This document shows, in pieces, positions 33,280 through 61,221 of a DNA stretch of 64,000 nucleotides. This DNA comes from Catellatospora tritici. Lineage in GTDB: Bacteria; Actinomycetota; Actinomycetes; Mycobacteriales; Micromonosporaceae. Under the pieces are notes generated by a model. That model ran no database searches, was not told where the DNA came from, and saw nothing but the letters and a program-made list of their open reading frames with translations. The position numbers and the translations under genes are program-made. The stretch is taken from the NCBI RefSeq assembly GCF_019083965.1, contig NZ_JAHRCY010000010.1, forward strand, positions 248,001-312,000. The letters run 5' to 3'. Positions within the stretch are counted from its first letter, which is position 1. Every line of letters begins with the position of its first letter.

Positions 33280-34440
33280 GTGCGAACACATCGCATCAGT
33301 AGACGAAGGGCCGGGGCGATCGCGCTAGGGACGCTGCTCGCGCTGCCGGTCGTCGCGAACGCGGGCGCCGATCCTGCCGCCGCGAACGACATACGGCCGG
33401 CGGTGGCCTTCGGTTTCAACAACCACGGACAGCTGGGTGACGGCACGTCCATCCACCGGTTCGTTCCTGTGGGGGTGAACAACCTGGTCGAGACGAAGCA
33501 GGTCTCCGCCGGGGGCTTCCACAGCCTGGCGCTGCTGACCAACGGCACCGTCCGGTCGTGGGGCTGGAACGAGTCCGGCCAGCTCGGCGACGGCACGACG
33601 ACCGAGAGGACCGTTCCGGGCACCGTGGTCGGGCTGTCCGGGGTGCGTGCCGTCGCCGCCGGTTTCGCCTTCTCGCTGGCGCTGCTGGACAACGGCAAGA
33701 TCATGGCCTGGGGTGCGAACGACTCCGGGCAGCTGGGCATCGGCACGTCCAGCAACGACCCGGTGCGGCTGCCGGTCGAGGTCAAGGGGATCAGCAACGC
33801 TCGCGCCATCTCGGCGGGGGGAGCCCACGGCTTGGCGCTGCTGGACGACGGCAAGGTCATGGTCTGGGGGATCGGCGTCGCACCCCAGGTCACGGCGACA
33901 CCGTTCCAGGTGGCGAACCTGGACCACGTCCGGGCCGTCGCCGCCGGTGATGCCCACAGCCTGGCCCTGCTCGAGGACGGCACGGTCAAGGCGTGGGGCG
34001 CCAATGACCGGGGTCAGCTCGGCACCGGCGCCATCTCCGGGCCCACCTTCACTCCGGCCAGGGTCGTGAACCTCGACGACGTCGAGGCCGTCGCCGCGGG
34101 CGGAGCGCACAGCCTGGCGCTGCTGGACAACGGCACGGGCCGGGCCTGGGGTGACAACCTGTTCGGTCAGCTGGGCATCGGCTCCTTCGGTGGCCAGCGC
34201 AGTACGCCGACCAGGATCGTCGGGCTCTCCCACGCGCGGGCCATCGCCGCCGGCGACGAACACAGCCTGGCGCTGTCCGCCGACGATGACGACGTCATCC
34301 TCAGCTGGGGCAGCGACAGCTTCGGCGGGCTCGGCGGCGGGACGTTGAGCCAGCAGGACAGACCCGTCACGGTGCAGTCCAGCCTGACCCGCGTACGGTC
34401 GATCGACGGCGGTAACGATTACAGCCTGGCCGCGGGCTGA
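33280..34440 (+). CDS. Secreted RCC1-repeat beta-propeller protein (copy 2)
   Basis: This 386-residue paralogue of the preceding gene has the same length, signal peptide and blade order. Long identical stretches such as RAISAGG and VGVNNLVETKQVSAG are shared. Differences cluster in the blade loops: AFGFNNHGQLGDGTSIHRF against AFGDNAHGQLGDGTILPRR, and in the last blade SWGSDSFGGLGGG where copy 1 has GWGRNSSGQLGDG. The fourth blade lacks GQLG in both, so this loss predates the duplication. The GTG start follows GGGGGGAA. A hairpin terminator after the stop closes the unit. Confidence 0.88.
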   Translation: MRTHRISRRRAGAIALGTLLALPVVANAGADPAAANDIRPAVAFGFNNHGQLGDGTSIHRFVPVGVNNLVETKQVSAGGFHSLALLTNGTVRSWGWNESGQLGDGTTTERTVPGTVVGLSGVRAVAAGFAFSLALLDNGKIMAWGANDSGQLGIGTSSNDPVRLPVEVKGISNARAISAGGAHGLALLDDGKVMVWGIGVAPQVTATPFQVANLDHVRAVAAGDAHSLALLEDGTVKAWGANDRGQLGTGAISGPTFTPARVVNLDDVEAVAAGGAHSLALLDNGTGRAWGDNLFGQLGIGSFGGQRSTPTRIVGLSHARAIAAGDEHSLALSADDDDVILSWGSDSFGGLGGGTLSQQDRPVTVQSSLTRVRSIDGGNDYSLAAG

Positions 34441-34512: not shown

Positions 34513-35538
34513 TCAGGGCTGCTGGGCCGGGCCGGTGGACTCGCGGACGACCAGGCGGCAGGGCTGGCGGATGACGCCGGAGGAGGCGGTGCCGTCCAGG
34601 GCCGCGAACAGGTGCATCACCGCGGTCGCGCCCAGCTGCTCCAGGTTCAGGTCCACCGTGGTCAGCGGCGGGCGGCAGTCGGCGGCCATCTCCTCCCAGT
34701 TGTCGTAGCCGACGACGGCCACGTCGTCCGGGATGCGGCAGCCGTGGTCGAGCAGCGCCTGGGCCACCCCGGCCGCGATCTGGTCGTTGCCGCAGAAGAT
34801 CGCGTCGACCTCGGGATGGGCGTTGATGAGGGTACGGGCCGCGTGCCGCCCCCACCGCTGCGACCACTCGCCGTACTGCGGCTCGCCGCCGACCAGCGAC
34901 AGCCCCGACTCGGCCAGTACCGCCTTGAGTCCGGTGACCCGGTCGCGGGCGGCCCGGTAGCTCTGCGGGCCGGTGATGTGGGCGATGTTGCGCCGCCGCA
35001 GCGACACCAGGTGCTCCCCGGCCAGCCGTGCCCCGCCCTCGTCGTCGGCGAGCACCGACAGGTCGCCGGGGTCGGTGGACTGGCCGTACACGTACACGAC
35101 GGGCACCGGGATGTCGCGGCTGAGCGAGGGGCGCAGGTCGTTGCTGTCGCCGAGGATGATGAACCCGTCGACCTGCCGGGCGAGCAGGGTGCGGATGTAG
35201 TGCTGGCGCCGGATCGCGTCGCCGCGGGCGTCGCACAGCAGCACCGACATCTGCTCGTTGCCCAGTGCGTTCTCGGCGCCGAGCAGGATCGGGATGGAGA
35301 AGCGGCCGCCGAGTTCGTCGGTGAGCAGCCCGATGGTGCGGGTGCGTCCGGAGATGAGGCCGCGGGCGAGCACGTTGGGCTGGAACGACAGCTGGTTGGC
35401 GGCCTGCAGCACGCGCAGCCTGGTGTCGGCGGCGACCTCGGCGCGCGCGTTGAGCGCCTTGGAGGCCGTGGCCACCGACACACCGGCCAGTCTGGCCACG
35501 TCGGTGAGGGTGACCGACTGGGATCGCCGCCTGCCCAA
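34513..35538 (-). CDS. LacI-family regulator of the arabinoside (GH127) locus
   Basis: The 341-residue regulator has the HTH VTLTDVARLAGVSVATASKALNARAEV (residues 9-35) and the hinge ANQLSFQPNVLARGLISGRT. The sugar-binding domain follows (IGLLTDELGGRFSIPILLGAENAL to DAIFCGNDQIAAGVAQALLDHG and AVVGYDNWEEMA). The start is probably the TTG at 35538 with AAAGG upstream. It is divergent from the GH127 gene with 184 bases between them. A perfect TTCGACA/TGTCGAA palindrome just upstream of its own start is the likely operator. The inducer is probably an arabinose-containing sugar. Confidence 0.88.
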   Translation of the reverse strand: MGRRRSQSVTLTDVARLAGVSVATASKALNARAEVAADTRLRVLQAANQLSFQPNVLARGLISGRTRTIGLLTDELGGRFSIPILLGAENALGNEQMSVLLCDARGDAIRRQHYIRTLLARQVDGFIILGDSNDLRPSLSRDIPVPVVYVYGQSTDPGDLSVLADDEGGARLAGEHLVSLRRRNIAHITGPQSYRAARDRVTGLKAVLAESGLSLVGGEPQYGEWSQRWGRHAARTLINAHPEVDAIFCGNDQIAAGVAQALLDHGCRIPDDVAVVGYDNWEEMAADCRPPLTTVDLNLEQLGATAVMHLFAALDGTASSGVIRQPCRLVVRESTGPAQQP

Positions 35539-35644: not shown

Positions 35645-35664
35645 TTGCCGAAAAGGTTTTCGGC
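35645..35664. promoter_or_regulatory. Palindrome upstream of GH127, shared word with GH146 promoter
   Basis: GCCGAAAA-GG-TTTTCGGC (35647-35664) is a perfect 8-bp inverted repeat 59 bases before the GH127 start. Its left half, with the preceding TT (TTGCCGAAAAGG), recurs at 58662-58673 before the second arabinofuranosidase gene. Confidence 0.6.
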
Positions 35665-35722
35665 GTCCAGAGTGGCTCCAACGTTCAAGTGACCGCGGTC
35701 ACGGAAGTTGTTGGAGGCGGAG

Positions 35723-37624
35723 ATGACGGTGACGGCGCGGACCGCCGACCTCACCGGAGGTCGGCCCGTGGTGCCGTCGCGGGGAGTCCTGCGACCGCTG
35801 GGCCTGGGAGAGGTTCGCATCACGGGGGGCTTCTGGGCGCAGCGCCAGCAGGTGAACGGCCGCCACACCCTGGACCACCATCGGGAATGGCTCGACAAGC
35901 TCGGCTGGACCGGCAACTTCACCGCCGAAGCGGGCCAGGGCAGCCGGGAGCGTCGCGGCCGGGAGTTCTCCGACTCGGAGGTGTACAAGCTGGTCGAGGC
36001 CCTGTCGTGGGAGAGCGGCCGGGTGGCCGACCCGGTGCGCGAGGCCCAGCTGGACGAGCTGACCGCGATGATCGCCGGGGCACAGGCGCCCGACGGCTAT
36101 CTGCACACCGCGTTCGGCCGGGCCGGGCAGCGGTCCCGCTACGAGGACCTGGCCTGGGGGCACGAGCTCTACTGCGCCGGGCACCTGCTGCAGGCGGCGG
36201 TGGCCCGCGCCCGTACGGGCGGAGGAGAGGCGCTGCTGGACGTGGCGCGCCGGGTGGCCGACCACGTGTGTGAGGAGTTCGGTCCGGACGGGCGTGACGC
36301 GGTGTGCGGGCACCCCGAGATCGAGCCCGCGCTGGTGGAGCTGTACCGGGTGACGGGGGAGCGGCGCTACCTGGACCAGGCGGCGCTGTTCGTGGACCGG
36401 CGCGGGCGGCGCAGCCTGCCGCCCCACGAGTTCGGCTGGTCCTACTTCAGCGACGACCAGCCGGTGCGCGAGGCGAAGGTGCTGCGCGGGCACGCGGTGC
36501 GGGCGCTGTACCTGGCCGCGGGCGTGATCGACGTGGCGGTGGAGACCGGTGACGACGAGCTGTTGGAGACGGTGGCGGCGCAGTTCGACCGGACCCTGGC
36601 CCGGCGCACGTACCTGACCGGTGGGATGGGCTCGCGGCACCTGGACGAGGCGTTCAGCGACGACTTCGTGCTGCCGGCCGACCGGGCCTACTCGGAGACC
36701 TGCGCCGGGATCGCGGCGATCATGGTGGCGTGGCGGCTGATGCTGGCCACCGGCCGTGAGCGGTACGCCGACGTGATCGAGCGGATCCTGTTCAACGTGG
36801 TCGCCACGGCGATCGGCGACGACGGCCGCTCCTTCTTCTACGCGCACACGCTGCACCAGCGCACACCCACCCGGATCCTGCCGACCGATGTCGAGCAGCT
36901 GGGTTTCGGGGGCGGGCCGCGGGCGCCGTGGTTCGAGGTGTCCTGCTGCCTGGCCAACCTGGGCCGCCTGCTGGCGAGCCTGTCGACCTACGTGGCCAGC
37001 GTCGAGGGCGACACGCTGCGGGTGCACCAGTTCGCCGACGCCGAGATCGACACGGTGCTCGGCGACGGGCGCCGGGTCGCGGTGCGGATGGGCACCGAGT
37101 ACCCGGACAACGGCACGGTGCGGCTGGACGTGCTGGTCGCGTCCGGTGGACCGTGGACGCTCGCGCTGCGGTTGCCCGCCTGGGCGGCCGGGGCGAGCGT
37201 GACCGTGAACGGGCAGGCGCAGCCGGTCGCGGGTGACCGGGTGCTGCTTACCCGCGAGTTCGCCGCCGGGGACGTGATCGTGCTGGAGCTGCCGATGCGG
37301 CCCCGGTTCACCCGCCCCGACCCGCGCATCGACGCGGTGCGCGGCTGCGTCGCCGTCGAGCAGGGTCCGCTGGTGCTGTGCGCGGAGTCGCTGGGCGGCG
37401 AGCTGGACCTGGACTCGCTGCGGGTCGACGTGGACACCGCCCCCGCCGACGGCGACGCCGTGACGGTACGCGGGCACACCGAGGACCTACCGGACGAGCC
37501 TTGGCCGTACGCCGACGCGGGGCCGGTGGGGCGGCGTGATCCGCTCGCGGTGCCGCTGGTGCCGTACCACCGTTGGGCCCGCTCCGGGCCGTCCACCATG
37601 CGGATCTGGCTGCCGACGGCCTGA
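35723..37624 (+). CDS. GH127 beta-L-arabinofuranosidase (cytoplasmic)
   Basis: This is a 633-residue glycoside hydrolase of the former DUF1680 family. The zinc-binding and catalytic residues known from HypBA1 are all there: E325-T-C327 in RAYSETCAGIA and C408-C409 in FEVSCCLANLGRL. The second Cys is the nucleophile in this unusual cysteine glycosidase class. HEFGWSYFSDDQPVREAKVLRGHAVRALYL and AQAPDGYLHTAF are further family marks. It has no signal peptide, so it acts on imported beta-L-arabinofuranosides. The ATG follows GGAGGCGGAG. It heads the operon with the CUT1 transporter genes. Confidence 0.92.
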   Translation: MTVTARTADLTGGRPVVPSRGVLRPLGLGEVRITGGFWAQRQQVNGRHTLDHHREWLDKLGWTGNFTAEAGQGSRERRGREFSDSEVYKLVEALSWESGRVADPVREAQLDELTAMIAGAQAPDGYLHTAFGRAGQRSRYEDLAWGHELYCAGHLLQAAVARARTGGGEALLDVARRVADHVCEEFGPDGRDAVCGHPEIEPALVELYRVTGERRYLDQAALFVDRRGRRSLPPHEFGWSYFSDDQPVREAKVLRGHAVRALYLAAGVIDVAVETGDDELLETVAAQFDRTLARRTYLTGGMGSRHLDEAFSDDFVLPADRAYSETCAGIAAIMVAWRLMLATGRERYADVIERILFNVVATAIGDDGRSFFYAHTLHQRTPTRILPTDVEQLGFGGGPRAPWFEVSCCLANLGRLLASLSTYVASVEGDTLRVHQFADAEIDTVLGDGRRVAVRMGTEYPDNGTVRLDVLVASGGPWTLALRLPAWAAGASVTVNGQAQPVAGDRVLLTREFAAGDVIVLELPMRPRFTRPDPRIDAVRGCVAVEQGPLVLCAESLGGELDLDSLRVDVDTAPADGDAVTVRGHTEDLPDEPWPYADAGPVGRRDPLAVPLVPYHRWARSGPSTMRIWLPTA

Positions 37625-37689: not shown

Positions 37690-38979
37690 ATGAGAGTTCG
37701 GAAGCTGCGTGGTCTCGCACTCGGTGCGGCCGCGCTGCTGCTGGCGTCGATGACGGCCTGTGGCGGCGACGACCCGGCGGCGCCGGGCGCGTCCGGCACC
37801 GACGGCGTCGACGACGGCGCCCAGTTGACCCTGTGGACCCGGGCGGCGACCGAGTCGGTGTCCAAGGCGTACGCCGAGGCCTACAACGCCACCCACAAGA
37901 ACAAGGTGACCGTCACCTCGTACCCGAACGAGGAGTACCCGGCGAAGCTGGCCTCGGCCGCGGGCGCCAAGGCGCTGCCGGACCTGTTCGGCTCCGACGT
38001 GGTGTTCGCCCCGCAGTACGCCTCGCAGGGCCTGTGGGCCGACATCACCGACAGGTTCGCCGCCAGCGGGCTGAAGGACAAGGTGTCGCCCGGACACGTG
38101 CGCGCCGGCACCTGGGAGGGCAAGAGCTACGCCATCCCGCACACCGTCGACATGTCGGTGATGCTCTACAACAAGGACCTGTACGCCAAGGCCGGGCTCG
38201 ACCCGGAGAAGGGTCCGAAGTCGCTGAAGGAGTTCGCCGAGCAGGCCCGCGCGATCAACAAGCTGGGCGGCGACGTGCACGGCACCTACTTCGGCGGCAA
38301 CTGCGGCGGCTGCGTCGAGTTCACCTTCTGGCCCTCGGTCTGGGGCGCGGGCGGCAACGTCCTCGACGCCGACGGCAAGAACGCGAAGATCGACTCCAAG
38401 GAGATGGCCGACGTGTTCGCCATCTACCGCGCGCTGTACGACGAGGGCGTGGCGGCCCCGGCCTCCAAGGACGAGGCCGGTCCGACCTGGCTCGGCGCGC
38501 TGCAGAGTGGCAAGATCGGCATCGCCCCCGGCCCGTCGGTGTGGCTGGGCCTCATCGAGGAGAAGGGCGTGAAGATGGGCGTCGCGCCGATCAGCGGCCC
38601 GGACGGCGGCGACTCCACCTTCATCGGCGGCGACTCGATCGGCATCGGCGCCACCAGCACCAAGGCCGCCCAGGCCTGGGACTTCCTCAAGTGGACCATG
38701 TCCGAGGAGGCGCAGGTCGAGGTCATCGCCAAGAACAAGGGCGTGCCGATCCGCACCGACCTCGCGTCGAACAAGTACTCCGCGGCCGACCCGCGCATCG
38801 TGACCATCAACAGCCTGGTCGCCAAGGGCGTCACGCCGTACGCGAAGAACTTCAACGCCTCGTTCAACGACCCGCAGAGCCCCTGGCTGCAGACGGTCCG
38901 TGGCGCCCTGTTCGGTGACGCCGCCAAGGCGCTGAGCGAGGGCAACACCGCCATCACCAAGTCCCTCCAGCAGGGCTGA
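37690..38979 (+). CDS. Sugar ABC transporter substrate-binding lipoprotein (arabinoside locus)
   Basis: The 429-residue lipoprotein has signal LRGLALGAAALLLASMTAC with the lipobox Cys at 24. The mature protein follows the family 1 SBP pattern: LTLWTRAATESVSKAYAEAYN, VTSYPNEEYPAKLASAAGAKALPDLFGSD, MLYNKDLYAKAGLDPEKGPKSLKEFAEQAR, and a late GGDSIGIGATSTKAAQAWDFLKWTMSEEAQ. An insertion NCGGCVEF carries two extra Cys, possibly a disulfide. It probably binds arabino-oligosaccharides, from context. The ATG follows AGGAG. A 12-bp hairpin follows the stop, before the permease genes. Confidence 0.9.
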   Translation: MRVRKLRGLALGAAALLLASMTACGGDDPAAPGASGTDGVDDGAQLTLWTRAATESVSKAYAEAYNATHKNKVTVTSYPNEEYPAKLASAAGAKALPDLFGSDVVFAPQYASQGLWADITDRFAASGLKDKVSPGHVRAGTWEGKSYAIPHTVDMSVMLYNKDLYAKAGLDPEKGPKSLKEFAEQARAINKLGGDVHGTYFGGNCGGCVEFTFWPSVWGAGGNVLDADGKNAKIDSKEMADVFAIYRALYDEGVAAPASKDEAGPTWLGALQSGKIGIAPGPSVWLGLIEEKGVKMGVAPISGPDGGDSTFIGGDSIGIGATSTKAAQAWDFLKWTMSEEAQVEVIAKNKGVPIRTDLASNKYSAADPRIVTINSLVAKGVTPYAKNFNASFNDPQSPWLQTVRGALFGDAAKALSEGNTAITKSLQQG

Positions 38980-39037: not shown

Positions 39038-39931
39038 ATGTCCCCGAAGGCAAGCCGCAGTCGCAGCCGGGCGCGGGCGCTGACCGGCGCCGCGTACGCC
39101 GCCCCGACCGCGGTCATGGTCGTGGTGTTCTTCCTCGCCCCGCTGCTGCTGGTGGGCTGGATGTCGCTGCACAAGTGGCCGCTGCTGGGCGCGCCCACCA
39201 TGAACGCCCCCGACAACTACACCCGCATCGCCGACAACGAGCTGGTCGGCTCGGCGGTGTGGTTCACGCTGCGCTACACGGTCGTGATGACGGTGCTGCT
39301 GTTCGTGGTCGCGTTCGGGCTGGCCCTGCTGGTGCAGCACCGGCGGCCCGGCGTGGGCTTCCTGCGTACGGCGTTCCTGCTGCCGATGGCGGTCGGCTTC
39401 GCCAGCGCCTCGCTGCTGTTCCTGGGCCTGCTGTCCGACGAGATCGGCCCGGTCAGCGACCTGCTGCGCAAACTCGGCGTCATCGAGGGCTACGTCTCGT
39501 GGACCAGCGGCAGTTCCACCTCGGCGCTGGGCTCGACCGTCGCGCTGGTGCTGTGGCGCTTCGCCGGGTTCAACATGCTGATCATCCTCACCGGGCTGCA
39601 GGCCATCCCGCTGGAGGTGTACGAGGCCGCCCGCATCGACGGCGCCACCCGCTGGCAGACCTTCCGCCGGGTGACCATCCCGCTGATGCGGCCCACCATC
39701 GCGCTGGTGCTGACCATGATGGTGACCGGTTCGCTGCTGGCCTTCGACCAGTTCTGGATCCTGACCCGGGGCGGCCCCGACAACAGCACCACCTCGCTGG
39801 TGATGCTGATCTACCGGGAGGCGTTCATCCGCCTCGACCTCGGCTCCGCCTCGGCGATCTCGGTGGCCCTGCTGGCCGTGCTCATCGTGTTCAACGTCGT
39901 CCAGCTCGGCGTGCTGCGCCGGCGCGGTTAG
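39038..39931 (+). CDS. Sugar ABC transporter permease (MalF-type)
   Basis: The 297-residue permease has six hydrophobic segments beginning AAPTAVMVVVFFLAPLLLVGWMSL. The ATPase-contact loop reads YEAARIDGATRWQTFRRVTIPLMRPTI, a clean EAA motif. The N-terminus is short and Ser/Arg-rich. GGAGAG precedes the ATG by a normal distance. It pairs with the next gene, 12 bases downstream, to form the membrane channel for the lipoprotein at 37690. As in the pectin locus, no ATPase gene accompanies the system. Confidence 0.9.
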   Translation: MSPKASRSRSRARALTGAAYAAPTAVMVVVFFLAPLLLVGWMSLHKWPLLGAPTMNAPDNYTRIADNELVGSAVWFTLRYTVVMTVLLFVVAFGLALLVQHRRPGVGFLRTAFLLPMAVGFASASLLFLGLLSDEIGPVSDLLRKLGVIEGYVSWTSGSSTSALGSTVALVLWRFAGFNMLIILTGLQAIPLEVYEAARIDGATRWQTFRRVTIPLMRPTIALVLTMMVTGSLLAFDQFWILTRGGPDNSTTSLVMLIYREAFIRLDLGSASAISVALLAVLIVFNVVQLGVLRRRG

Positions 39932-39943
39932 GAAAGGCCCCGC

Positions 39944-40753
39944 ATGAACTCGTCGAACGCCGTGAGCCGGTGGAGCTTCTACGTCACCGGTGTCGCGCTG
40001 GCGATCCTGTTCCTGTCGCCGCTGCTCTGGAGCGGTTGGGCCTCGCTGCGCACCGGATCCGGCTTCGGGCTGGAGAACTATGACCGGCTGTTCACCTCGG
40101 ACAACGGCATCCGCCTGGAGCACATCGTCAACAGCGTCACGGTCAGCGCGCTGACCGTCGGCGGCACCCTGCTGGTCTCCACCCTCGGCGGGTACGCCTT
40201 CGGCCGGTTCCGGTTCCCGGGCCGTGACCTGCTGTTCCTGCTGACCCTGGCGATCCTGATGGTCCCGTACGCCACCATCCTGATCGCGCTCTACGTCCTG
40301 CTCGGCTGGCTCGGCCTGCAGGACAGCCTGATCGGCCTGAGCCTGGTGCTGATCATGTTCCAGCTGCCGTTCTCGATCTTCATGATGCGCAACTCGTTCG
40401 AGGCGGTACCACGCGAGCTGGAGGAGTCGGCTCAGGTCGACGGGTGCACCAGCTTCTCCGCACTGATCCGGATCATGCTCCCGGCGGTCAAGCCCGGACT
40501 GGTCACCGTCGGGCTGTTCGCGTTCCTGACCTCGTGGAGCGAGTTCTTCGCCCCGCTGATCCTGCTCAACTCCACCGACAAGTTCACCACCACGCTCGCG
40601 GTGGTGAACATGCGCACGGCCAGCCACGGCTCCATCGACTACGCCGCCCTGGAGGCGGGCGTGGTGTTCATGGCGGTGCCGTGCCTGCTGCTGTTCGCGT
40701 TCATGCAGCGCAGCTACGTACGCGGCTTCACCTCCGGCGCGCTGAAGGGATGA
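39944..40753 (+). CDS. Sugar ABC transporter permease (MalG-type)
   Basis: The 269-residue permease opens with WSFYVTGVALAILFLSPLLWSGWASLRTG, typical of CUT1 MalG subunits. TLLVSTLGGYAFGRFRFPGRDLLF follows, and the EAA loop is LEESAQVDGCTSFSALIRIMLPAVKPGL. It ends in SGALKG. GGAAAGG stands before the ATG. The gene closes the transporter part of the operon. A hairpin and a 132-base gap separate it from the large secreted hydrolase gene, which may be transcribed by read-through or from its own promoter. Confidence 0.9.
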   Translation: MNSSNAVSRWSFYVTGVALAILFLSPLLWSGWASLRTGSGFGLENYDRLFTSDNGIRLEHIVNSVTVSALTVGGTLLVSTLGGYAFGRFRFPGRDLLFLLTLAILMVPYATILIALYVLLGWLGLQDSLIGLSLVLIMFQLPFSIFMMRNSFEAVPRELEESAQVDGCTSFSALIRIMLPAVKPGLVTVGLFAFLTSWSEFFAPLILLNSTDKFTTTLAVVNMRTASHGSIDYAALEAGVVFMAVPCLLLFAFMQRSYVRGFTSGALKG

Positions 40754-40820: not shown

Positions 40821-40885
40821 CCCAACAGACCTCTCACCGCAGCCCAGTTCCTCACCACCGTCCCCCAATTGTGGAGGTGAACCAC

Positions 40886-43800
40886 ATGCCATCCATCTTG
40901 CGCACCCGGCGCAGGTCGCTGGCAGTCGGGCTCTGCGCCGTGCTCGCCGCCGGAGTCGTCGCCGTCCAGGCGCAGACCCCGGCCATGGCGGCCCAGACCA
41001 TCGGCTTCCCCACGTTCACCGGAACCGCCCCGCCGGCGGCACCGGTGAGCTACACCGCCGGCAACATGATGCAGGCGATCTACAACGCCGAGAGCTCCGG
41101 CACCGACTTCTGGCTCGACCGCATGCTGGCCCGTACGGGCAGCAGCGACCCGGCCGACGCGGACGGCGCGATCCTCATGACCCGCGGCCGCGCCCTGTTC
41201 ATGAAGACCTACAGTCCCGGCACGATGGGATTCGCCGGACACGTCGCCTACTGGGAGAGCATCAGCGACAACAACGCCTACACCATCACGGCCAGCCCTG
41301 GCACGTTCACCGAGCAGGGTTCGCAGCGGGTGCAGACGCCGAGCTACTCGAAGAACGTCTTCACCAGTGGCTCTATCACGATCACGCAGCAGAAGTTCAT
41401 CACCGACAACAACGTCGCGGTGACGAACCTGTCCATCGCCAACAACGGGTCCGCCTCCACCACGCTGACCCTGCGCGCGGTGTCGCCTTACGCGACCAGC
41501 GGTAGCGGCAGCGAGCTGACCGGCTCGACCGGGACGAAGAACAGCCTGACCACTCTCACGACAAAGCTCACCGGTGACAGCTTCACCGTCTCCAGCGGCG
41601 GGCTGAACCGGTCGATCACGATCGGCGCCGGAGCCACGGCGACGGCGAAGGTCGTCATGGGCTTCATCGCCAGCGAGATCCCCGAGTCGTCGTCCGAGTA
41701 CACGGCATACGCCGGCTACTCGAACGCGACCGCCTTCGCGACCCATGTGCGGGCCTACAACCTGTGGTGGGCGCAGAACATCCCCTACTTCAACTCGCCC
41801 GAGCCGGCGCTCACGAAGAACTACTACTACCGCTGGTGGCTGATGAGGTTCAACAACCTCGACGCCAACATCCCGGGCCAGACGTTCCAGTTCCCGACCT
41901 CGGTCGAGGGCGCGCTCGGCTACAACAACGCGATCGTGCTCACCCAGCCCATGCACATCGACGACCTGAAGTACCTGCGCACGCCGCTGTATGCGTACGG
42001 CGACTGGCTCAGCGTCGGTCAGGTGTCCAAGGGCGCCCGGTTCGTGGACAACCCCGGTGACCCGGAGAACTGGTCCAACAGCTACACCCAGTATGTCGCC
42101 GAGGCGGCGTGGAAGAGCTACCAGATCCACGGCGGCCAGCCGGCGATCGCGGCCAACCTCGCCAAATACGCCGAGGGCGATGTCAAGGGCCAGCTCTCGT
42201 ACTACGACACGAACAGCAACAAGCTCCTCGAGTACGACTGGGGCGCGCTGACCGGTAACGACGCCGACGCGGTGTCCTTCCACTGGCGTTCCGGCAAGAT
42301 GGACCGCGGCGAGGCGGCGTACCAGTACAGCGGCGCCCGTGCGGCGGCGCAGGCCTACGCGGCGATCGGCAACACGGCCAAGGCGAACGAGATGAATACG
42401 CTCGCCGACCAGATCCAGGCCGCGTTCACCAGCGTGCTCTGGAACTCCAGCCGCCAGCTGTTCGAGAACCGGATGGTGTCGGACGGCGCGTTCAACCCGT
42501 GGAAAGAGATCAACATCTACTACCCGTTCGCGGTGAACGCCATCCCGAACACGACGACCTACAAGGAAGCGCTGCGGCTGTTCGCCGATCCGGCTCAGTA
42601 CCCCGTGTTTCCGTTCTACACCGCCAACCAGGCGGACAAGGCGGCATCGGGGACAGGCAGCAACAACTTCTCCACCATCAACTCGACCGTGCAGTTCCGG
42701 CTCTTCTCCTCGGTGCTGCGCAACTACCCCACCTCCTACATCACTGCGACCGACTACAAGAAGCTGCTCTACTGGAACGCCTGGGCGCAGTACGTCAACG
42801 GCAGCATGAACTACCCCGACGCCAACGAGTTCTGGGCTGACTGGAACGGGTCGTCGATCACGTACCGCTCCTGGATCCACCACAACATCCTCGGCAGCAG
42901 CAACTGGACCCTGATCGAGGACGTCGCCGGCCTGCGCCCGCGCAGCGACGCGAAGGTCGAGCTGAACCCGATCAACATCAGCTGGCCGTACTTCACCGTC
43001 AACAACATCCGCTACCGCAACGCCGACCTCACCATCGTCTGGGACGACCCGGCCGACGGCGTGGTCCGCTACCCCGGCGTGCCCGAGGGCTACTCCATCT
43101 ACATCAACGGCAGCCGGGCGGCGACGGTCAGCTCGCTGGTGCCCTTCACCTGGGACCCGGCGACCGGCGCGGTCACCACCAGCGGCACGGTCACCTACAA
43201 CACCGCCGTGTCCGGCCTGCAGGCCCCGAACCAGGTCGTGCAGTCCGACGCCCGGGTGCTGGACGAGCTGGCCAAGGCCGGTATCGACACCACCCTGCCC
43301 GCCCTGACCAACCTGGCCACCGGTGCCACCGTCACCGCCTCCTACACCGGGTCGGGCACGACCACGGCCGGTGCGGTCGACGGGTTCCCCACCAACGAGC
43401 CGTACTGGGGCGCCGGAGGTTCGGCCAACAGCCAAGACTGGCTGGAACTGAACATGGGCACCGCCAAGACGTTCAACGAGGTGCGGCTCTACTTCAAGGA
43501 CAGCCGTCCGGCGTCGGCCACCTACCGGGCGCCGTCGGCGTACGACGTCCAGTACTACAACGGCAGCGCGTGGGTGAGCGTGGCCAGCCAGGCCAAGACG
43601 CCCAGCACCCCGAAGGGCAACTACAACCTGGTCACGTTCCCGGCGGTCACCGCCCAGCGGGTGCGGGTGCTGGCCACCAACGCCTCGGGCGCCAAGACCG
43701 GCCTCACGGAGATCAAGATCTTCAACCGTGGGGGCGTACAGCCACCGGTGTCCACCAACCTGGCCCTGGCGGCGACGCCGAGCTGCTCGTACACGTCCTC

Positions 43801-44188
43801 GTGGGAGAGCTGCGCGGCGATCAACAACGGGGACGAGCCGACCAGCTCCAACTGGGGCGGCACCAACCAGGGCAACCGCTGGGGCACCTGGCCCAACAGC
43901 GGCGCCCAGTGGGCGGAGCTGCAGTGGTCGTCGGCGCAGTCGCTGACCAAGGCCGACGTGTACTTCTTCGACGACGAGGGCGGCATCGACATGCCGGCCT
44001 CGTGGAAGCTGCAGTACTGGAACGGCAGCGCGTACGTCGACGTGCCCGGCGCGAGCGCCTACACGCTGACGAAGAACGCGTACAACACGATCACCTTCAC
44101 CGGGGTCAGCACGACCCGGCTACGGGTGGCGCTGACCAGCAACGGGACCAGTTCGGTCGGTCTGCTGGAGGTGAAGGCGTTCGCCTGA
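40886..44188 (+). CDS. Secreted MGH1-like glycoside hydrolase with two C-terminal discoidin-type domains
   Basis: The protein has 1100 residues with a signal peptide ending near TPAMA. A beta-rich N-terminal region leads into an (alpha/alpha)6-type catalytic region (about 300-700) with NYYYRWWLMRFNNL, FPTSVEGALGYNNAIVLTQPMHIDDLKYL and WRSGKMDRGEAAYQYSGARAAAQAYAAIG. These recall the MGH1-like/GH63-related hydrolases. Residues about 808-948 and 958-1100 are two F5/8-type carbohydrate-binding domains (NLATGATVTASY and NLALAATPSCSY openings). Position after GH127 and a transporter suggests an arabinoside substrate, perhaps like GH142, but the exact family is not certain. A perfect GGAGGTGA ribosome site fixes the ATG at 40886. 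Confidence 0.75.
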   Translation: MPSILRTRRRSLAVGLCAVLAAGVVAVQAQTPAMAAQTIGFPTFTGTAPPAAPVSYTAGNMMQAIYNAESSGTDFWLDRMLARTGSSDPADADGAILMTRGRALFMKTYSPGTMGFAGHVAYWESISDNNAYTITASPGTFTEQGSQRVQTPSYSKNVFTSGSITITQQKFITDNNVAVTNLSIANNGSASTTLTLRAVSPYATSGSGSELTGSTGTKNSLTTLTTKLTGDSFTVSSGGLNRSITIGAGATATAKVVMGFIASEIPESSSEYTAYAGYSNATAFATHVRAYNLWWAQNIPYFNSPEPALTKNYYYRWWLMRFNNLDANIPGQTFQFPTSVEGALGYNNAIVLTQPMHIDDLKYLRTPLYAYGDWLSVGQVSKGARFVDNPGDPENWSNSYTQYVAEAAWKSYQIHGGQPAIAANLAKYAEGDVKGQLSYYDTNSNKLLEYDWGALTGNDADAVSFHWRSGKMDRGEAAYQYSGARAAAQAYAAIGNTAKANEMNTLADQIQAAFTSVLWNSSRQLFENRMVSDGAFNPWKEINIYYPFAVNAIPNTTTYKEALRLFADPAQYPVFPFYTANQADKAASGTGSNNFSTINSTVQFRLFSSVLRNYPTSYITATDYKKLLYWNAWAQYVNGSMNYPDANEFWADWNGSSITYRSWIHHNILGSSNWTLIEDVAGLRPRSDAKVELNPINISWPYFTVNNIRYRNADLTIVWDDPADGVVRYPGVPEGYSIYINGSRAATVSSLVPFTWDPATGAVTTSGTVTYNTAVSGLQAPNQVVQSDARVLDELAKAGIDTTLPALTNLATGATVTASYTGSGTTTAGAVDGFPTNEPYWGAGGSANSQDWLELNMGTAKTFNEVRLYFKDSRPASATYRAPSAYDVQYYNGSAWVSVASQAKTPSTPKGNYNLVTFPAVTAQRVRVLATNASGAKTGLTEIKIFNRGGVQPPVSTNLALAATPSCSYTSSWESCAAINNGDEPTSSNWGGTNQGNRWGTWPNSGAQWAELQWSSAQSLTKADVYFFDDEGGIDMPASWKLQYWNGSAYVDVPGASAYTLTKNAYNTITFTGVSTTRLRVALTSNGTSSVGLLEVKAFA

Positions 44189-47193: not shown

Positions 47194-47222
47194 TTGACGG
47201 CACTTCATGTTAGCGCTAACAC
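47194..47222 (+). promoter_or_regulatory. araB promoter with overlapping operator
   Basis: TTGACG (47194-47199) and TAACAC (47217-47222) are spaced by 17 bases. The perfect palindrome TGTTAGCGCTAACA (47208-47221) covers the spacer and -10 box, so a bound LacI-type AraR would block RNA polymerase. Confidence 0.7.
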
Positions 47223-47252: not shown

Positions 47253-48905
47253 ATGGGCGAAGCGGCAGACCCCCGCGACCGGTACGTCGTGGGTGTCGAC
47301 TACGGCACCCTGTCGGGCCGGGCACTGGTGGTGCGCGTGTCCGATGGCGCCGAGGTCGGCACGGCGGTGCACCCGTACCGCCATGCCGTGATGGACACGG
47401 AGCTGGCCGCCGATGGCAGGGCGTTGCCGCCCGACTGGGCGCTGCAGGATCCCGACGACTACCGCGACGTGCTCCGTCACGCGGTCCCGGCCGCGGTCGC
47501 CGCCGCCGGGATCGACCCGGCGCAGGTCGTCGGCATCGCCACCGACTTCACCGCGTGCACGGTGCTGCCGACGCTGGCCGACGGCACGCCGCTGTGCGAG
47601 CTGGCCGAGCTGCGCACCCGGCCGCACGCGTACGTCAAGCTGTGGAAGCACCACGCCGCGCAGTCGCACGCCGACCGGATCAACGCGACCGCCGCGCAGC
47701 GCGGCGAGCCGTGGCTGGCCCGCTACGGCGGGAAGATCTCCTCGGAGTGGCAGTTCGCCAAGGGCCTGCAGCTGCTGGAGGAGGACCCGGAGGTCTACCA
47801 CCGGGCCGACCGCTGGATCGAGGCGGCCGACTGGATCGTGTGGCAGCTGTGCGGCGCCGAGACCCGCAACGTCTGCACCGCCGGCTACAAGGGCATCCGC
47901 CAGGACGGGCAGTACCCGTCGGCCGACTACCTGGCCGCGCTGAACCCCGACTTCACCGGCTTCACCGCGAAGATCGACGGTCCGCTGCTGGAGCTGGGGG
48001 AGCGGGCCGGGTCGCTGACCGCGCAGGCCGCCACCTGGACCGGGCTGCCCGAGGGCATCGCGGTCGCGGTCGGCAACGTCGACGCGCACGTCACCGCGGC
48101 CGCCGCGCAGGCCATCGAGCCGGGCCGCCTGGTCGCCATCATGGGCACCTCGACCTGCCACGTCGTCAACGGCGAGAAGCTGGCCGAGGTGCCGGGCATG
48201 TGCGGCGTCGTCGAGGGCGGCATCAGCGCGGGTGCCTGGGGTTACGAGGCGGGCCAGAGCGGCGTCGGCGACATCTTCGGCTGGTTCGTCGAGCACGCGG
48301 CCCCGGCCGGATACGACTCGCACGAAATTCTGTCCGAGCTGGCTGCTGCGCAGCCCGTGGGCGCGCACGGCCTGGTCGCGCTGGACTGGTGGAACGGCAA
48401 CCGCTCGCTACTGGTCAACCACGAGCTGTCCGGCCTGATCGTCGGCCTGACCCTGGCCACCCGCCCGCACGAGATCTACCGGGCGCTGCTGGAGTCCACC
48501 GCGTACGGCACCCGCATGATCATGGAGGCGTTCGCTGAGGCGGGCGTGCCGGTGACCGAGCTGGTCATCGCGGGCGGCCTGGCCGCCAACAGCCTGCTGA
48601 TGCAGATCTACGCCGACGTGACCGACCGGCCGCTGAGCCTGATCGGCTCGGCGCAGGGACCGGCGCTGGGCTCGGCGATCCACGCCGCGGTCGCCGCCGG
48701 TGACTACCCGGACGTGGCGACCGCCTCGGCGGCGATGGGTCGGGTCGAGCGCGCCGTCTTCCGGCCGGACCCGGAACGCGCCCGCGCCTACGACGCCCTC
48801 TACACCGAATACCGCGCGCTGCACGACCACTTCGGCCGGGGCGGCGACGACATGATGCTGCGCCTGCGCGCCATCCGCAACGCGGCCCGGGGGGAGCAGG
48901 CATGA
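47253..48905 (+). CDS. araB: L-ribulokinase AraB
   Basis: The 550-residue FGGY-family kinase matches AraB throughout. The ATP-binding phosphate loop is YVVGVDYGTLSGRALVV near the N-terminus. DFTACTVLP, the AraB-type LWKHHAAQ, EAADWIVWQLCG, AIMGTSTCHVV and the C-terminal IAGGLAANSLLMQIYADVT follow. It phosphorylates L-ribulose at the 5-OH with ATP. It heads the arabinose operon; the start codon (ATG 47253) has GAGGTGGGC upstream. Its stop overlaps the start of araD (ATGA, 48902-48905). Two operators upstream suggest repression relieved by arabinose. Confidence 0.95.
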   Translation: MGEAADPRDRYVVGVDYGTLSGRALVVRVSDGAEVGTAVHPYRHAVMDTELAADGRALPPDWALQDPDDYRDVLRHAVPAAVAAAGIDPAQVVGIATDFTACTVLPTLADGTPLCELAELRTRPHAYVKLWKHHAAQSHADRINATAAQRGEPWLARYGGKISSEWQFAKGLQLLEEDPEVYHRADRWIEAADWIVWQLCGAETRNVCTAGYKGIRQDGQYPSADYLAALNPDFTGFTAKIDGPLLELGERAGSLTAQAATWTGLPEGIAVAVGNVDAHVTAAAAQAIEPGRLVAIMGTSTCHVVNGEKLAEVPGMCGVVEGGISAGAWGYEAGQSGVGDIFGWFVEHAAPAGYDSHEILSELAAAQPVGAHGLVALDWWNGNRSLLVNHELSGLIVGLTLATRPHEIYRALLESTAYGTRMIMEAFAEAGVPVTELVIAGGLAANSLLMQIYADVTDRPLSLIGSAQGPALGSAIHAAVAAGDYPDVATASAAMGRVERAVFRPDPERARAYDALYTEYRALHDHFGRGGDDMMLRLRAIRNAARGEQA

Positions 48906-49579
48906 GCGAGATCGTCCGCAAGCTGCGCGAACAGGTCGCGGGGCTGCACTCGGAGCTGACCCGGTACGGCCTGGTCGCCTGGACGGCCGGCAACGTGTCG
49001 GCGCGGGTGCCCGGGGAGAACCTGATGGTGATCAAGCCGAGCGGGGTGTCCTACGACGACCTCAGTCCGGCCAACATGATCGTCTGCGACCTGAACGGCA
49101 CGGTCGTCGAGGGCGACCTGTCGCCGTCGAGCGACACCGCCGCGCACGCCTACGTATACCGGGCTATGCCAGAGGTCGGCGGGGTGGTGCACACGCACAG
49201 CACCTACGCCACGGCGTGGGCGGCGCGCGGGGAGTCGATCCCGTGCCATCTGACCGCGCAGGCCGACGAGTTCGGCGGGGAGATCCCGGTCGGGCCGTTC
49301 GCGCTGATCGGCGGGGACGACATCGGCAAGGGGATCGTGGCCACGTTGTCGGGGCACCGGTCGCCGGCCGTACTGATGCGCAATCACGGTGTGTTCACCA
49401 TCGGCAAGGACGCGAAAGCCGCGGTCAAGGCCGCGGTGATGTGTGAGGACGTGGCACGGACCGCGCATCTGGCCCGTTCGCTCGGGCAGCCGCTGCCGAT
49501 GGCCGCCGCCGATGTGGACGCCCTCTACCACCGCTACCAGAACGTCTACGGCCAGGCCGGTCCGCCGGTCGCGCCGTAG
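48902..49579 (+). CDS. araD: L-ribulose-5-phosphate 4-epimerase AraD
   Basis: The 225-residue class II aldolase/epimerase has zinc ligands H97 and H99 in VVHTHSTYATAWA and H162 in LMRNHGVFTIGKD. The segments WTAGNVSAR and VIKPSGVSYDDLSPANMIVCDLNG bind the phosphate. D78 in PSSDTAAH fits the conserved Asp. It converts L-ribulose 5-phosphate to D-xylulose 5-phosphate, the last step before the pentose phosphate pathway. It is translationally coupled to araB. About 110 bases follow before the transporter gene, without a terminator. Confidence 0.93.
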   Translation: MSEIVRKLREQVAGLHSELTRYGLVAWTAGNVSARVPGENLMVIKPSGVSYDDLSPANMIVCDLNGTVVEGDLSPSSDTAAHAYVYRAMPEVGGVVHTHSTYATAWAARGESIPCHLTAQADEFGGEIPVGPFALIGGDDIGKGIVATLSGHRSPAVLMRNHGVFTIGKDAKAAVKAAVMCEDVARTAHLARSLGQPLPMAAADVDALYHRYQNVYGQAGPPVAP

Positions 49580-57901: not shown

Positions 57902-58536
57902 GCGCGCAGCCAGGCGCGCCAGGTGGCGGGGGTGACCGGGGCGGCCGGGTGGTCCAGGGCCCAGTTGACGTATCCGGCCCGCAGGCCCACCAGCGGGTCG
58001 GGGTGCCCGAGTGCCGCCTCGACGAGCCACCGTACCGACGGCTCGTGCAGGGTCCGCGCGACCTTGACGTAGCCGAGGTCCTCACAGCGGTGCTCGCGCC
58101 GTACCGCCGCGTCGACCAGGGCCAGCAGGTCGCCGTGCGTGTCCACGGTCGGCCCGTGCTCGGCCAGGGCGCGCAGGAGCAGCCGCTTGGCGGTCCAGCT
58201 CTTGGCGTGCTCGGCCCACTCGGCCGGGAACTCGGTCTCCCAGCGCAGGTAGAGCACGGCGTGGCGGGCGAACGGGGCCAGCTGCGCGGCGGGGGCGTCG
58301 CTGGTCATGTAGTGCCAGACCGGAGCGGCGAACATGAGGTCGTACGCGTCGCGCATGGCCGCCGACAGCTGATCGTGCTCGCCCACGCGCTGGTGTACGA
58401 CGCGAGCCTGCGAGCTCAGCCGTGACCACTCCTCCTGGTACATGCGCTCGGTCTCCAGCGCCGTCTGACGGCGCTGCGGATCGGGGTGCACCACGTCGAA
58501 GGTCCACGCGAACCCTGCCAGCTGCTCTGCCTGCAT
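57898..58536 (-). CDS. Uncharacterised protein coupled to the DUF7336-like gene
   Basis: The 212-residue protein is rich in Ala, Trp and charged residues, with no membrane segment: FAWTFDVVHPDPQRRQTALETERMYQEEWSRL, then AYDLMFAAPVWHYMTSDAPAAQLAPFARHAVLYLRWETEFPAEWAEHAKSW and a helical C-terminal half. I recognise no domain. I chose the ATG at 58536 (MQAEQLAGF); the ribosome site is poor and an in-frame ATG at 58617 would add a dubious leader. The 4-base overlap with the next gene suggests a two-gene unit. It is divergent from the GH146 gene. Confidence 0.55.
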   Translation of the reverse strand: MQAEQLAGFAWTFDVVHPDPQRRQTALETERMYQEEWSRLSSQARVVHQRVGEHDQLSAAMRDAYDLMFAAPVWHYMTSDAPAAQLAPFARHAVLYLRWETEFPAEWAEHAKSWTAKRLLLRALAEHGPTVDTHGDLLALVDAAVRREHRCEDLGYVKVARTLHEPSVRWLVEAALGHPDPLVGLRAGYVNWALDHPAAPVTPATWRAWLRA

Positions 58537-58660: not shown

Positions 58661-58678
58661 GTTGCCGAAAAGGATTTC
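58661..58678 (+). promoter_or_regulatory. Operator-like word upstream of GH146, shared with the GH127 promoter
   Basis: GTTGCCGAAAAGGATTTC contains TTGCCGAAAAGG, identical to the left part of the palindrome at 35645. A TTTCG word 10 bases upstream (58651-58655) could pair with CGAAA as a looser inverted repeat. It lies about 65 bases before the start codon. Confidence 0.5.
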
Positions 58679-58743
58679 ATAGACAACCATCAGCGATTAC
58701 GGACTCCGCTCTCGCCGCACCCGTCCCTGAGAAGGGTGAGAAC

Positions 58744-61221
58744 ATGTCCGAAATCTCCCGCCGCGCCGTGCTGCGGGCCGGTGCCGTCGGCGCCGCCGCG
58801 ACGGCCGTCGGCGGCCTGTCCGCCGGGCAGGCGGCGTACGCCGCGCGCACCGACATCGGTGTCTCGGTGTACCCGTTCCCGCTGTCGGCGGTCACGCTGC
58901 TGGCCGGGCCGTTCCTGAGCAACGCCGGGCGCACCCAGAGCTACCTGAGCTTCCTGGACGCCGACCGGCTGCTGCACACGTTCCGGCTCAACTACGGCAT
59001 CAGCTCCTCGGCCGCGGCCTGCGGCGGCTGGGAGTCGCCGACCACCGAGCTGCGGGGGCACTCGATGGGGCACGTGCTGTCGGCGCTGGCCCAGGCGTAC
59101 GCCAACACCGGCACCACCAGCTACAAGACCAAGGGTGACTACCTGGTGGCCCAGCTGGCCACCTGCCAGGCCCGTGCCACCACGGCCGGGTTCAACACCG
59201 GCTACCTGTCGGCGTACCCGGAGAGCTTCATCGACCGGGTGGAGGCGCGCCAATCGGTGTGGGCGCCGTACTACACCCTTCACAAGATCATGGCGGGTCT
59301 GTTGGACCAGCACCTGCTCACCGGCAACGCCCAGGCGCTGACGGTGCTCACCGCGATGGCGTCGTGGACGAAGTTCCGCAACGACCGGCTCACCCTCACC
59401 CAGCGGCAGAACATGCTCGACACCGAGTTCGGTGGCATGAACGAGGTGCTGACCAACCTGTACCAGCTCACCGGCGACCCCAACCACCTGGCCGCCGCGC
59501 AGCACTTCGACCACGCCGAGGTGTTCGACCCGCTGGCCGCCAACACCGACGCGCTGAACAACTACCACGCCAACACGCAGATCCCGAAGATGATCGGCGC
59601 GATCCGGGAGTACCACGCCACCGGCACCACCCGGTACCTCGACATCGCCCGCAACTTCTGGGACATCGTGATCGGGCACCACACGTACGCCATCGGCGGC
59701 AACTCCAACGGCGAGTACTTCAAGGCCCCCGACCGGATCGCCTCGGAGCTGTCGGACAGCACCTGCGAGTGCTGCAACGTGTACAACATGCTCAAGCTGT
59801 CCCGGCAGCTGTTCTTCACCAACCCCAACCGCGCCGACTACATGGACTACTACGAGAAGGCGCTCTACAACCAGCTGCTCGGCGCGCAGAACCCGAACTC
59901 CACGCACGGGTTCCACAGCTACTACATCCCGCTGCGGGCCGGCGGCATCAAGACCTACAGCAACGACTACGACAACTTCACCTGCTGCCACGGCACCGGG
60001 ATGGAGACCAACACGAAGTACGCCGACAGCATCTACTTCTTCTCCGGCGACAGCCTGTACGTGAACCTGTTCATCGCCTCGCAGCTCAACTGGGCCGCCA
60101 AGGGGATCACGGTGCGGCAGGACACCACGTTCCCGGAGGCGGCGTCGAGCAAGCTGACGATCACCGGATCGGGCACGTTCACGCTGAAGGTGCGGGTGCC
60201 CGCCTGGGCCACCGGCGCCACGGTCAAGGTGAACGGGACCACACAGACTGGGGTGACGGCCGGGTCGTACACGTCGATCAACCGGGTCTGGGCCTCCGGC
60301 GACGTGGTCGACATCAGCCTGCCGATGGCACTGACCCGCGAGTCCACTCCCGACAGCTCGACCACCCAGGCGGTCAAGTACGGCCCGATCGTGCTGGCCG
60401 GGGCGTACGGCACCACCAACCTGACCGCCCTGCCCACCCTGACGCCGTCGTCGCTGGCCGCGACCTCGACGCCGCTGCAGTTCACCGCGACCGCCTCCAC
60501 CGGCGCGGTCACCCTGTTCCCGTTCTACAAGATGCACGGCCAGCGCTACACCGTGTACTGGAACGTCACCACGACCACGCCGCTGCCGCAGTTCGTGGCG
60601 CACTGGAAGTTCGACGAGACCTCGGGCACCAGTGCCGCCGACGCCACCGGCAACGGCAAGACGGCCTCGCTGGCCGGGGGAGCGACCTGGGTCGCCGGGC
60701 GCACCGGCAACGCGGTCAGCCTCAGCGGCACCTCGCAGTACGTCTCCGCGCCGTCGGGCATCCTGGCCGGGGCCACCGCGTTCAGCGCGGCGACCTGGGT
60801 GCGGCTGGACACCGTCGCCAACTGGGCCCGGTTGTTCGACTTCGGCACCGGCACCACCGCCAACATGTTCCTCGTGCCGCGCAGCAGCGCGAACACGGCC
60901 CGATTCGCGATCACCAATTCGGGCGCGGGCGGCGAGCAGCAGATCAACGCGCCGTCGGCGCTGCCCACGGGAGTATGGACGCACGTCGCGGTCACCATCG
61001 GGGGCGGCGTGGGCATCCTGTACGTCAACGGCGCCGAGGTGGCCCGGAACTCGGCGATGACGCTGACGCCGGGGTCGCTGGGCAGCACCACGCAGAACTG
61101 GATCGGGCGCTCGCAGTACAGCGGGGACCCGTACCTGGATGGGGCGGTGGACTCGTTCCGGCTGTACAGCCGGGCGCTGACCGCCAGCGAGGTCGCCAAC
61201 CTGTACTCCACCGGCCAGTGA
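58744..61221 (+). CDS. Secreted GH146-type beta-L-arabinofuranosidase with LamG domain
   Basis: The 825-residue protein has a Tat signal (ISRRAVLRAGAVGAAATAVGG, 4-24). The catalytic part (about 45-590) belongs to the DUF1680/GH127-GH146 group: ELRGHSMGHVLSALAQAY, FGGMNEVLTNLYQLTGDPN, YAIGGNSNGEYF. The zinc-Cys centre is E342-C-C344 in STCECCNVYNML together with C414-C415 in FTCCHGTGMETN. From about residue 618 a LamG/concanavalin-like domain follows (VAHWKFDETSGTSAADATGNG to GAVDSFRLYSRALTASEVANLYS). It removes arabinofuranose outside the cell, opposite in location to the GH127 at 35723. GAAGGGTGA precedes the ATG; a 13-bp terminator follows. Confidence 0.9.
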   Translation: MSEISRRAVLRAGAVGAAATAVGGLSAGQAAYAARTDIGVSVYPFPLSAVTLLAGPFLSNAGRTQSYLSFLDADRLLHTFRLNYGISSSAAACGGWESPTTELRGHSMGHVLSALAQAYANTGTTSYKTKGDYLVAQLATCQARATTAGFNTGYLSAYPESFIDRVEARQSVWAPYYTLHKIMAGLLDQHLLTGNAQALTVLTAMASWTKFRNDRLTLTQRQNMLDTEFGGMNEVLTNLYQLTGDPNHLAAAQHFDHAEVFDPLAANTDALNNYHANTQIPKMIGAIREYHATGTTRYLDIARNFWDIVIGHHTYAIGGNSNGEYFKAPDRIASELSDSTCECCNVYNMLKLSRQLFFTNPNRADYMDYYEKALYNQLLGAQNPNSTHGFHSYYIPLRAGGIKTYSNDYDNFTCCHGTGMETNTKYADSIYFFSGDSLYVNLFIASQLNWAAKGITVRQDTTFPEAASSKLTITGSGTFTLKVRVPAWATGATVKVNGTTQTGVTAGSYTSINRVWASGDVVDISLPMALTRESTPDSSTTQAVKYGPIVLAGAYGTTNLTALPTLTPSSLAATSTPLQFTATASTGAVTLFPFYKMHGQRYTVYWNVTTTTPLPQFVAHWKFDETSGTSAADATGNGKTASLAGGATWVAGRTGNAVSLSGTSQYVSAPSGILAGATAFSAATWVRLDTVANWARLFDFGTGTTANMFLVPRSSANTARFAITNSGAGGEQQINAPSALPTGVWTHVAVTIGGGVGILYVNGAEVARNSAMTLTPGSLGSTTQNWIGRSQYSGDPYLDGAVDSFRLYSRALTASEVANLYSTGQ

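Follow-up and report, generated by a model that had tools for sequence, protein, structure and literature searches.

The window analysed here, 64,000 nucleotides of the Catellatospora tritici genome (contig NZ_JAHRCY010000010.1, positions 248,001 to 312,000), carries a large reading frame at 40886-44188 that encodes a protein of 1100 residues. The frame opens at a GTG at 40871 and the likely start is the ATG at 40886, immediately preceded by a ribosome-binding-like GGAGGTG. The third-position GC is 0.95, a strong actinomycete codon bias, and the frame, start and length were confirmed as a sequence-only reading of this DNA had given them. That reading had also described a GH127 gene and a CUT1 transporter upstream with a divergent LacI gene, all of which were recognized by Pfam, and two discoidin-type domains, both of which were found (residues 816-938 and 958-1099). 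Export, likewise proposed earlier, is probable. There is a hydrophobic segment at residues 11-29 with a mean hydropathy of 2.1, and nothing comparable near the carboxyl end, where the maximum over the final 300 residues is 0.8; the protein is therefore probably secreted and unanchored.

The sequence-only reading had been unable to place the protein in a characterised family. However, a comparison with solved structures gave only two matches at E<=0.001, HypBA2 of Bifidobacterium longum JCM 1217 (BLLJ_0212, PDB 6m5a) and the GH142 enzyme BT1020 of Bacteroides (PDB 5mqr). The match to HypBA2 (E=2.7e-186, 625 bits) consists of two stretches spanning residues 54-801, with 47% identity across 591 aligned catalytic columns, and puts the protein in GH121. 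The BT1020 match (E=1.3e-20) is weaker by about 165 orders of magnitude by E-value, so the comparison with GH142 suggested earlier did not hold. The sole NCBIfam match was to the HypBA2 model NF041578, a model of 1709 positions, of which the best stretch of the window protein covers positions 20-1046 only, with 824.5 bits.

HypBA2, the founding member of GH121, has been crystallised and mutated (PMC7263609), and a Xanthomonas member has been characterised biochemically (PMC6085000). In HypBA2, E383, D515 and E713 are essential and completely conserved, the assignment of nucleophile and acid/base being a proposal of that study; P437, G438 and W443 are also completely conserved, and of the calcium sites Ca2 is essentially conserved, unlike Ca1 and Ca3 (PMC7263609). 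The equivalent residues of the window protein are E341, D459 and E648, and P390, G391 and W396. The ligand types of the Ca2 site are kept as well (N497/N499/N501/L503/D505/D532 of HypBA2 corresponding to D441/N443/N445/L447/E449/D473). A genome scan identified 218 stretches encoding relatives, and the counts of related loci given here rest on the best 80 of these 218, all of which, judging by genus, are actinomycetes. The six pocket residues were invariant in all 80 loci, and again in 19 of 19 loci from a class-wide sample (L099-L117), among which L104 lies at zero tree distance from L048. An (alpha/alpha)6 fold is predicted by homology to 6m5a. These comparisons make a well-supported case that the protein belongs to GH121, a characterised family, and would represent no new type of enzyme. 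The sequence-only reading had presented it as a candidate new arabinoside-active enzyme; activity on beta-linked arabinofuranosides is indeed very probable, as the context suggests, but the enzyme is not new.

The protein is very likely an exported GH121 beta-L-arabinobiosidase that releases the L-arabinofuranose (Araf) disaccharide Araf-beta1,2-Araf from hydroxyproline-linked arabinosides. In the pocket of the predicted barrel, E648 would be the probable nucleophile and D459 the probable acid/base, and E341 would hold the sugar at the -1 position. The disaccharide would be cut from the Ara3-hydroxyproline side chains of plant extensin-type glycoproteins, with the two discoidin modules probably binding the substrate or the cell wall. 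The lipoprotein would then catch the disaccharide, the two permeases would import it, and the Cys/Zn GH127 enzyme would split it inside the cell to L-arabinose, which would enter the pentose phosphate pathway via AraA, AraB and AraD. A LacI repressor may keep the operon off from an operator overlapping the -35 box and spacer. A matching gene set and order of action have been published for B. longum (PMC7263609, PMC5928203). Rhamnogalacturonan II (RG-II), which the sequence-only reading had listed among the substrates to be tried, received no specific support.

The likeness to HypBA2 includes the catalytic region over most of its length, the three essential acidic residues, the pocket Pro/Gly/Trp, the Ca2 site, an N-terminal signal, C-terminal F5/8C modules, and hypBA1, an ATP-binding cassette importer and a LacI gene nearby. 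However, HypBA2 has 1943 residues. In contrast to it, the window protein carries two discoidin modules with no Big_4, FIVAR or membrane anchor found by Pfam and hydropathy analysis, is probably freely secreted and has lost the Ca1 site, and no hypAA stands beside its gene. XeHypBA2 of Xanthomonas euvesicatoria (XCV2729) is similarly described as an extracellular GH121 enzyme without a membrane-anchoring region, but its GH127 partner is extracellular (PMC6085000), whereas the window GH127 lacks a hydrophobic N-terminal segment. The BauR1 regulon of bifidobacteria (bauR-hypBA1-bauABC-hypBA2) has the same regulator family and gene set (PMC5928203).

Table 1. Features of the window. Positions count from the first nucleotide of the window.
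Feature	Position	Strand	Basis
Predicted GH121 beta-L-arabinobiosidase (HypBA2-like), 1100 residues, probably secreted	40886..44188	+	PDB 6m5a, NCBIfam NF041578, six diagnostic residues
Codon of E341, equivalent of HypBA2 E383 (essential)	41906..41908	+	E in 80/80 loci
Codon of D459, equivalent of HypBA2 D515 (proposed acid/base)	42260..42262	+	D in 80/80 loci
Codon of E648, equivalent of HypBA2 E713 (proposed nucleophile)	42827..42829	+	E in 80/80 loci
First F5/8 type C domain (discoidin, CBM32-like), residues 816-938	43331..43699	+	Pfam PF00754/PF22633
Second discoidin-like domain, residues 958-1099	43757..44182	+	Pfam DUF7402; F5_F8_type_C counts two stretches
LacI-family regulator, divergent, BauR-like candidate	34513..35538	-	Pfam LacI, Peripla_BP_3; homologue in 58/80 loci
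Candidate operator, 18-bp palindrome GCCGAAAAGGTTTTCGGC, one mismatched central pair	35647..35664	.	Between LacI and GH127
Candidate promoter, TTGCCG (35645-35650), 17-bp spacer, CAGAGT (35668-35673)	35645..35673	+	Overlaps operator
GH127 beta-L-arabinofuranosidase (HypBA1-like), alternative start ATG 35723	35708..37624	+	Pfam GH127; 3wkw E=4.8e-80
Solute-binding lipoprotein of CUT1 transporter (reading frame opens at 37573)	37690..38979	+	6lce closest solved structure
CUT1 permease 1	39038..39931	+	Pfam BPD_transp_1
CUT1 permease 2	39944..40753	+	Pfam BPD_transp_1
L-ribulokinase AraB	47253..48905	+	TIGR01234 748.6 bits, cut-off 583
L-ribulose-5-phosphate 4-epimerase AraD	48902..49579	+	NF005123 375.7 bits, cut-off 251
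L-arabinose isomerase AraA	54349..55851	+	NF002795 793.1 bits, cut-off 622
Weaker operator/promoter-like site, 16/19 identical, 82 bp before likely GH146 start	58662..58680	+	Also in one relative (L073)
GH146-type beta-L-arabinofuranosidase with LamG-like domain, probably secreted (reading frame opens at 58486)	58744..61221	+	Pfam GH127 catalytic domain + Laminin_G_3; PDB 5opj E=1.6e-102

The neighbouring genes (Table 1) are consistent with the proposed route. E314/E330/C332/C413/C414 of the GH127 protein align with E322/E338/C340/C417/C418 of HypBA1, its catalytic and zinc residues (the nucleophile, zinc ligand and acid/base set). No ATPase gene was seen in the GH121 operon; importers of this kind in actinomycetes usually rely on a shared ATPase. 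GH127 enzymes use a cysteine nucleophile and zinc (PMC8106489). The N terminus of the window GH127 shows no hydrophobic segment or visible signal peptide, which fits an intracellular enzyme. The structure closest to the binding protein, 6lce (E=4.5e-88, with the next solved structure at 1.1e-25), is the beta-arabinobiose-binding protein of the HypBA2-bearing B. longum system (PMC8106489). On the 3' side of the GH121 gene, a CUT2-type transporter sits among the araB, araD and araA genes, and the GH146-type gene comes after them; a bifidobacterial GH146 enzyme is the subject of PMC10850190. Taken together, the window appears to encode a route from polymer to pentose phosphate, a GH43 alpha-arabinofuranosidase excepted. 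A perfect palindrome with an AraQ-like motif, TGTTAGCGCTAACA, lies at 47208-47221, about 30 bp before araB, and is likely the site of a separate arabinose regulator. Elsewhere, a glucuronate isomerase gene (UxaC, 15072-16535, minus strand) adjoins a GFO/IDH/MocA oxidoreductase gene, with a LacI gene and a CUT1-type transporter on the opposite strand; this region is a second sugar-acid cluster within the window.

Over the bit limits used, LacI was found in 58 of the 80 loci, GH127 in 56, the solute-binding protein in 53 and each permease in 51, and all five occurred together in 47 of the 80; of the 67 loci that reach 22 kb, 46 had the full set. In Asanoa (L070), genes for GH127, the binding protein, two permeases, GH146, GH43 and GH121 are consecutive on one strand. 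GH43 genes of two types, one in 36 loci and the other in 28, were present in the fetched stretches of 64 of the 80 loci, which was counted in favor of the arabinobiosidase assignment because GH43 is the expected HypAA partner.

Within the window's taxonomic family, 200 genomes were sampled and 85, from 16 of 44 genera, had a GH121 match at E<=1e-100; all 11 Catellatospora genomes, the window's included, were among these, although the operon copy of genome G422 covers residues 1-602 only. In the class-wide sample, the HypBA2 model matched 50 of 296 genomes at E<=1e-3, many solely via C-terminal modules, and reached at least 400 bits in 20, again including the window's. GH121 is thus common in soil actinomycetes, despite its description in 2020 as mostly bifidobacterial with Xanthomonas (PMC7263609), although its presence in actinomycetes is already in print (PMC6085000). 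No report of an actinomycete GH121 assay or of the present candidate operator was found in a search made largely by title, with subscription journals mostly outside it. New here, by computation, are the spread in the family and the candidate LacI operator in a TTGCCG-17-NANNNT promoter. The search of plasmid records gave no sign of the GH121 gene travelling on plasmids: six records matched, and the one over 80% of the query is an 11.85-Mb Nonomuraea record. A second GH121 type also occurs in genomes of the family; its members are long, with about 1.6-1.9 thousand residues, and share 38-44% identity with the window protein, and one example (G422:C7:347849-350299, L149) carries Big_4 and F5/8C modules.

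Several observations speak against the arabinobiosidase assignment. The score against NF041578 falls short of the equivalog cut-off of 3200 bits, a cut-off reached by none of the 296 sampled class genomes. An AlphaFold2 model, for which 20 close homologues were supplied along with the protein, had a mean pLDDT of 54 and a pTM of 0.28 and was discarded. Among the 67 long loci, 13 had none of LacI, GH127, the binding protein or either permease over the bit limits. The GH127 protein scored higher with 4qjy and 6ex6 than with HypBA1 and so may differ from it in its exact linkage preference. Finally, all 18 GH43 matches of the genome are on contigs other than the window's own, and 11 GH43 queries from this genome found nothing in the Catellatospora loci L005-L008 and L073.

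The possibility was considered that the enzyme is GH121 by descent but has shifted in substrate (one example would be a different beta-Araf-terminated disaccharide, carried by arabinogalactan proteins or by side chains of pectin), in which case the imported sugar would not be Araf-beta1,2-Araf. A shift of this kind could explain the mere 47% identity to HypBA2 across the catalytic columns, a GH127 enzyme nearer 4qjy and 6ex6 than HypBA1, and the additional GH146-type enzyme within the window. It is nevertheless unlikely: all six conserved pocket residues are kept, 6lce is by far the nearest solved structure to the binding protein, and XeHypBA2, from a distant genus, has the same strict Ara3-Hyp specificity (PMC6085000).

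An exo-beta-L-arabinofuranosidase of the GH142 type, acting on RG-II with release of single arabinose, is highly improbable. BT1020 is likewise active on beta-Araf and shares a distant, secondary similarity over about 450 residues, but it belongs to a different family with an RG-II substrate, the GH121 match is far stronger, and GH121 as a family reportedly does not conserve the ligand residues of GH142 (PMC7263609). The name MGH1-like hydrolase, adopted in the sequence-only reading, would point to an alpha-glycosidase of the GH63 or mannosylglycerate hydrolase type, which is less probable still and hardly to be entertained. The Pfam PF22422 match behind the name (44.7 bits) is weak and partial, covering residues 472-572 and model positions 171-270 of 356. 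No such enzyme appeared among the solved structures at E<=0.001, where both matches are named beta-L-arabinobiosidase, and the neighbour genes that can be named are related to arabinose. Membership of an alpha-glucosidase or mannosylglycerate family, the outcome that the sequence-only reading itself had set against its proposal, did not occur.

The regulator of the proposed arabinobiosidase operon matched no NCBIfam equivalog above its cut-off. The core of the candidate operator, GAAAANNTTTTC, occurs 34 times in the 1.76 Mb of the 80 loci, and 32 of these occurrences are near the start of LacI, GH127, the binding protein or GH121, at most 350 bp upstream of it or 30 bp into the gene. Seven rearranged palindromes had no occurrence in the same loci, although words so rich in AT are in any case scarce here. 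The exact core precedes LacI in 28 of the 58 loci that carry LacI and is missing there in the other 30. In L075 and L081 the transporter lies apart from GH121, and the core is found at both places. The window's genome of 9.59 Mb has two copies of CGAAAANNTTTTCG and none of the reversed pattern, and all 11 Catellatospora genomes have one site about 5.2-5.4 kb before GH121, the expected head of the operon. Of 53 distinct sites, 38 carry at least five of the six bases of TTGCCG at one edge, and 32 of these 38 have NANNNT at exactly 17 bp; every other spacing in the range 12 to 23 accounts for one site at most. Site orientation was picked by the fit to TTGCCG with NANNNT at spacing 17 as the tie-breaker, which slightly favors that spacing, and the counts are not independent trials because the sites are related by descent. 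The natural reading is that a LacI operator lies inside a sigma-70-type promoter, where the bound repressor would block the polymerase.

A different palindrome, TGACCGCGGTCA (GTGACCGCGGTCAC at 35689-35702), was rejected as the operator, since it precedes LacI only in five loci, all from Catellatospora (L005-L008 and L073), whereas GAAAANNTTTTC is wider. The site before the GH146 gene is not general: among 24 loci with a GH146 match, only one has a site agreeing at 14 or more of 19 positions in the interval from 300 bp before the start to 60 bp after it. In several other loci (e.g. L070) GH146 is located in the operon itself. Beside the LacI gene, two adjoining genes encode RCC1-repeat proteins of 386 residues each, 80% identical to one another (32015-33175 and 33280-34440, plus strand). 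Another RCC1-like protein, 43-45% identical, is encoded beside the second operator site of this genome (contig C5, L130). RCC1-repeat proteins are not known to have a role in glycan use.

The 11 Catellatospora genomes hold 32 operator-like sites, 21 of them away from the operon. Twenty of these 21 were inspected (L130 and L145-L163); the remaining one, G422:C33:95672, was placed by coordinates only, 169 bp before a GH121 fragment. Six of the 20 lie 200-270 bp before a ricin-lectin GH43 gene and one before a second GH121 of 1576 residues. Seven coincide with or immediately precede the start of the gene for a CBM2 protein that has an HEVGH motif and a weak metallopeptidase match (L147, L148, L153, L154, L157, L161 and L163), representing seven of the 10 other genomes of the genus; Pfam was run on four of these proteins, and the others are at least 76% identical to those. 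Three sites, in the window's genome, L145 and L146, are orphaned between convergent genes by a GH43 gene and a gene for a HELGH lectin protein, and three have no clear target. The site in the window's genome (L130:10745) was considered as the mark of a GH43 operon and rejected: the flanking genes converge on it, and from the 3' end of the lectin gene that follows GH43 it is some 110 bp away, so that it was treated as orphaned or a relic.

These sites suggest, tentatively, that the genus runs a one-LacI regulon for plant hydroxyproline-rich glycoproteins, in which GH121, GH43, GH127, GH146, the import of beta-Ara2 and secreted zinc metallopeptidases, possibly digesting the stripped backbone, would share one promoter-embedded operator (TTGCCGAAAAGGTTTTCGGC, with NANNNT at 17 bp). 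Such a regulon is possible, although somewhat doubtful on present evidence. Against it, the window genome's own CBM2/HEVGH copy (C1:9300-10574, 77% identical) has no operator-like site in its 4.3-kb locus, where the best candidate agrees at 12 of 19 positions. Separately, two pairs of identical matches, C1:9300 with C44:68838 and C4:259931 with C6:44, suggest overlapping or duplicated contigs in the assembly.

With the assignment to GH121, a candidate for a new family is removed and a testable assignment is gained. The enzyme itself is ordinary, and its spread and the regulon are mildly interesting. If the regulon reading is true, plant extensin would be a regular food of these soil bacteria, and the genus would be a source of GH121 enzymes, GH43 partners and perhaps proteases to match, with which hydroxyproline arabinosides and extensin might be dismantled.

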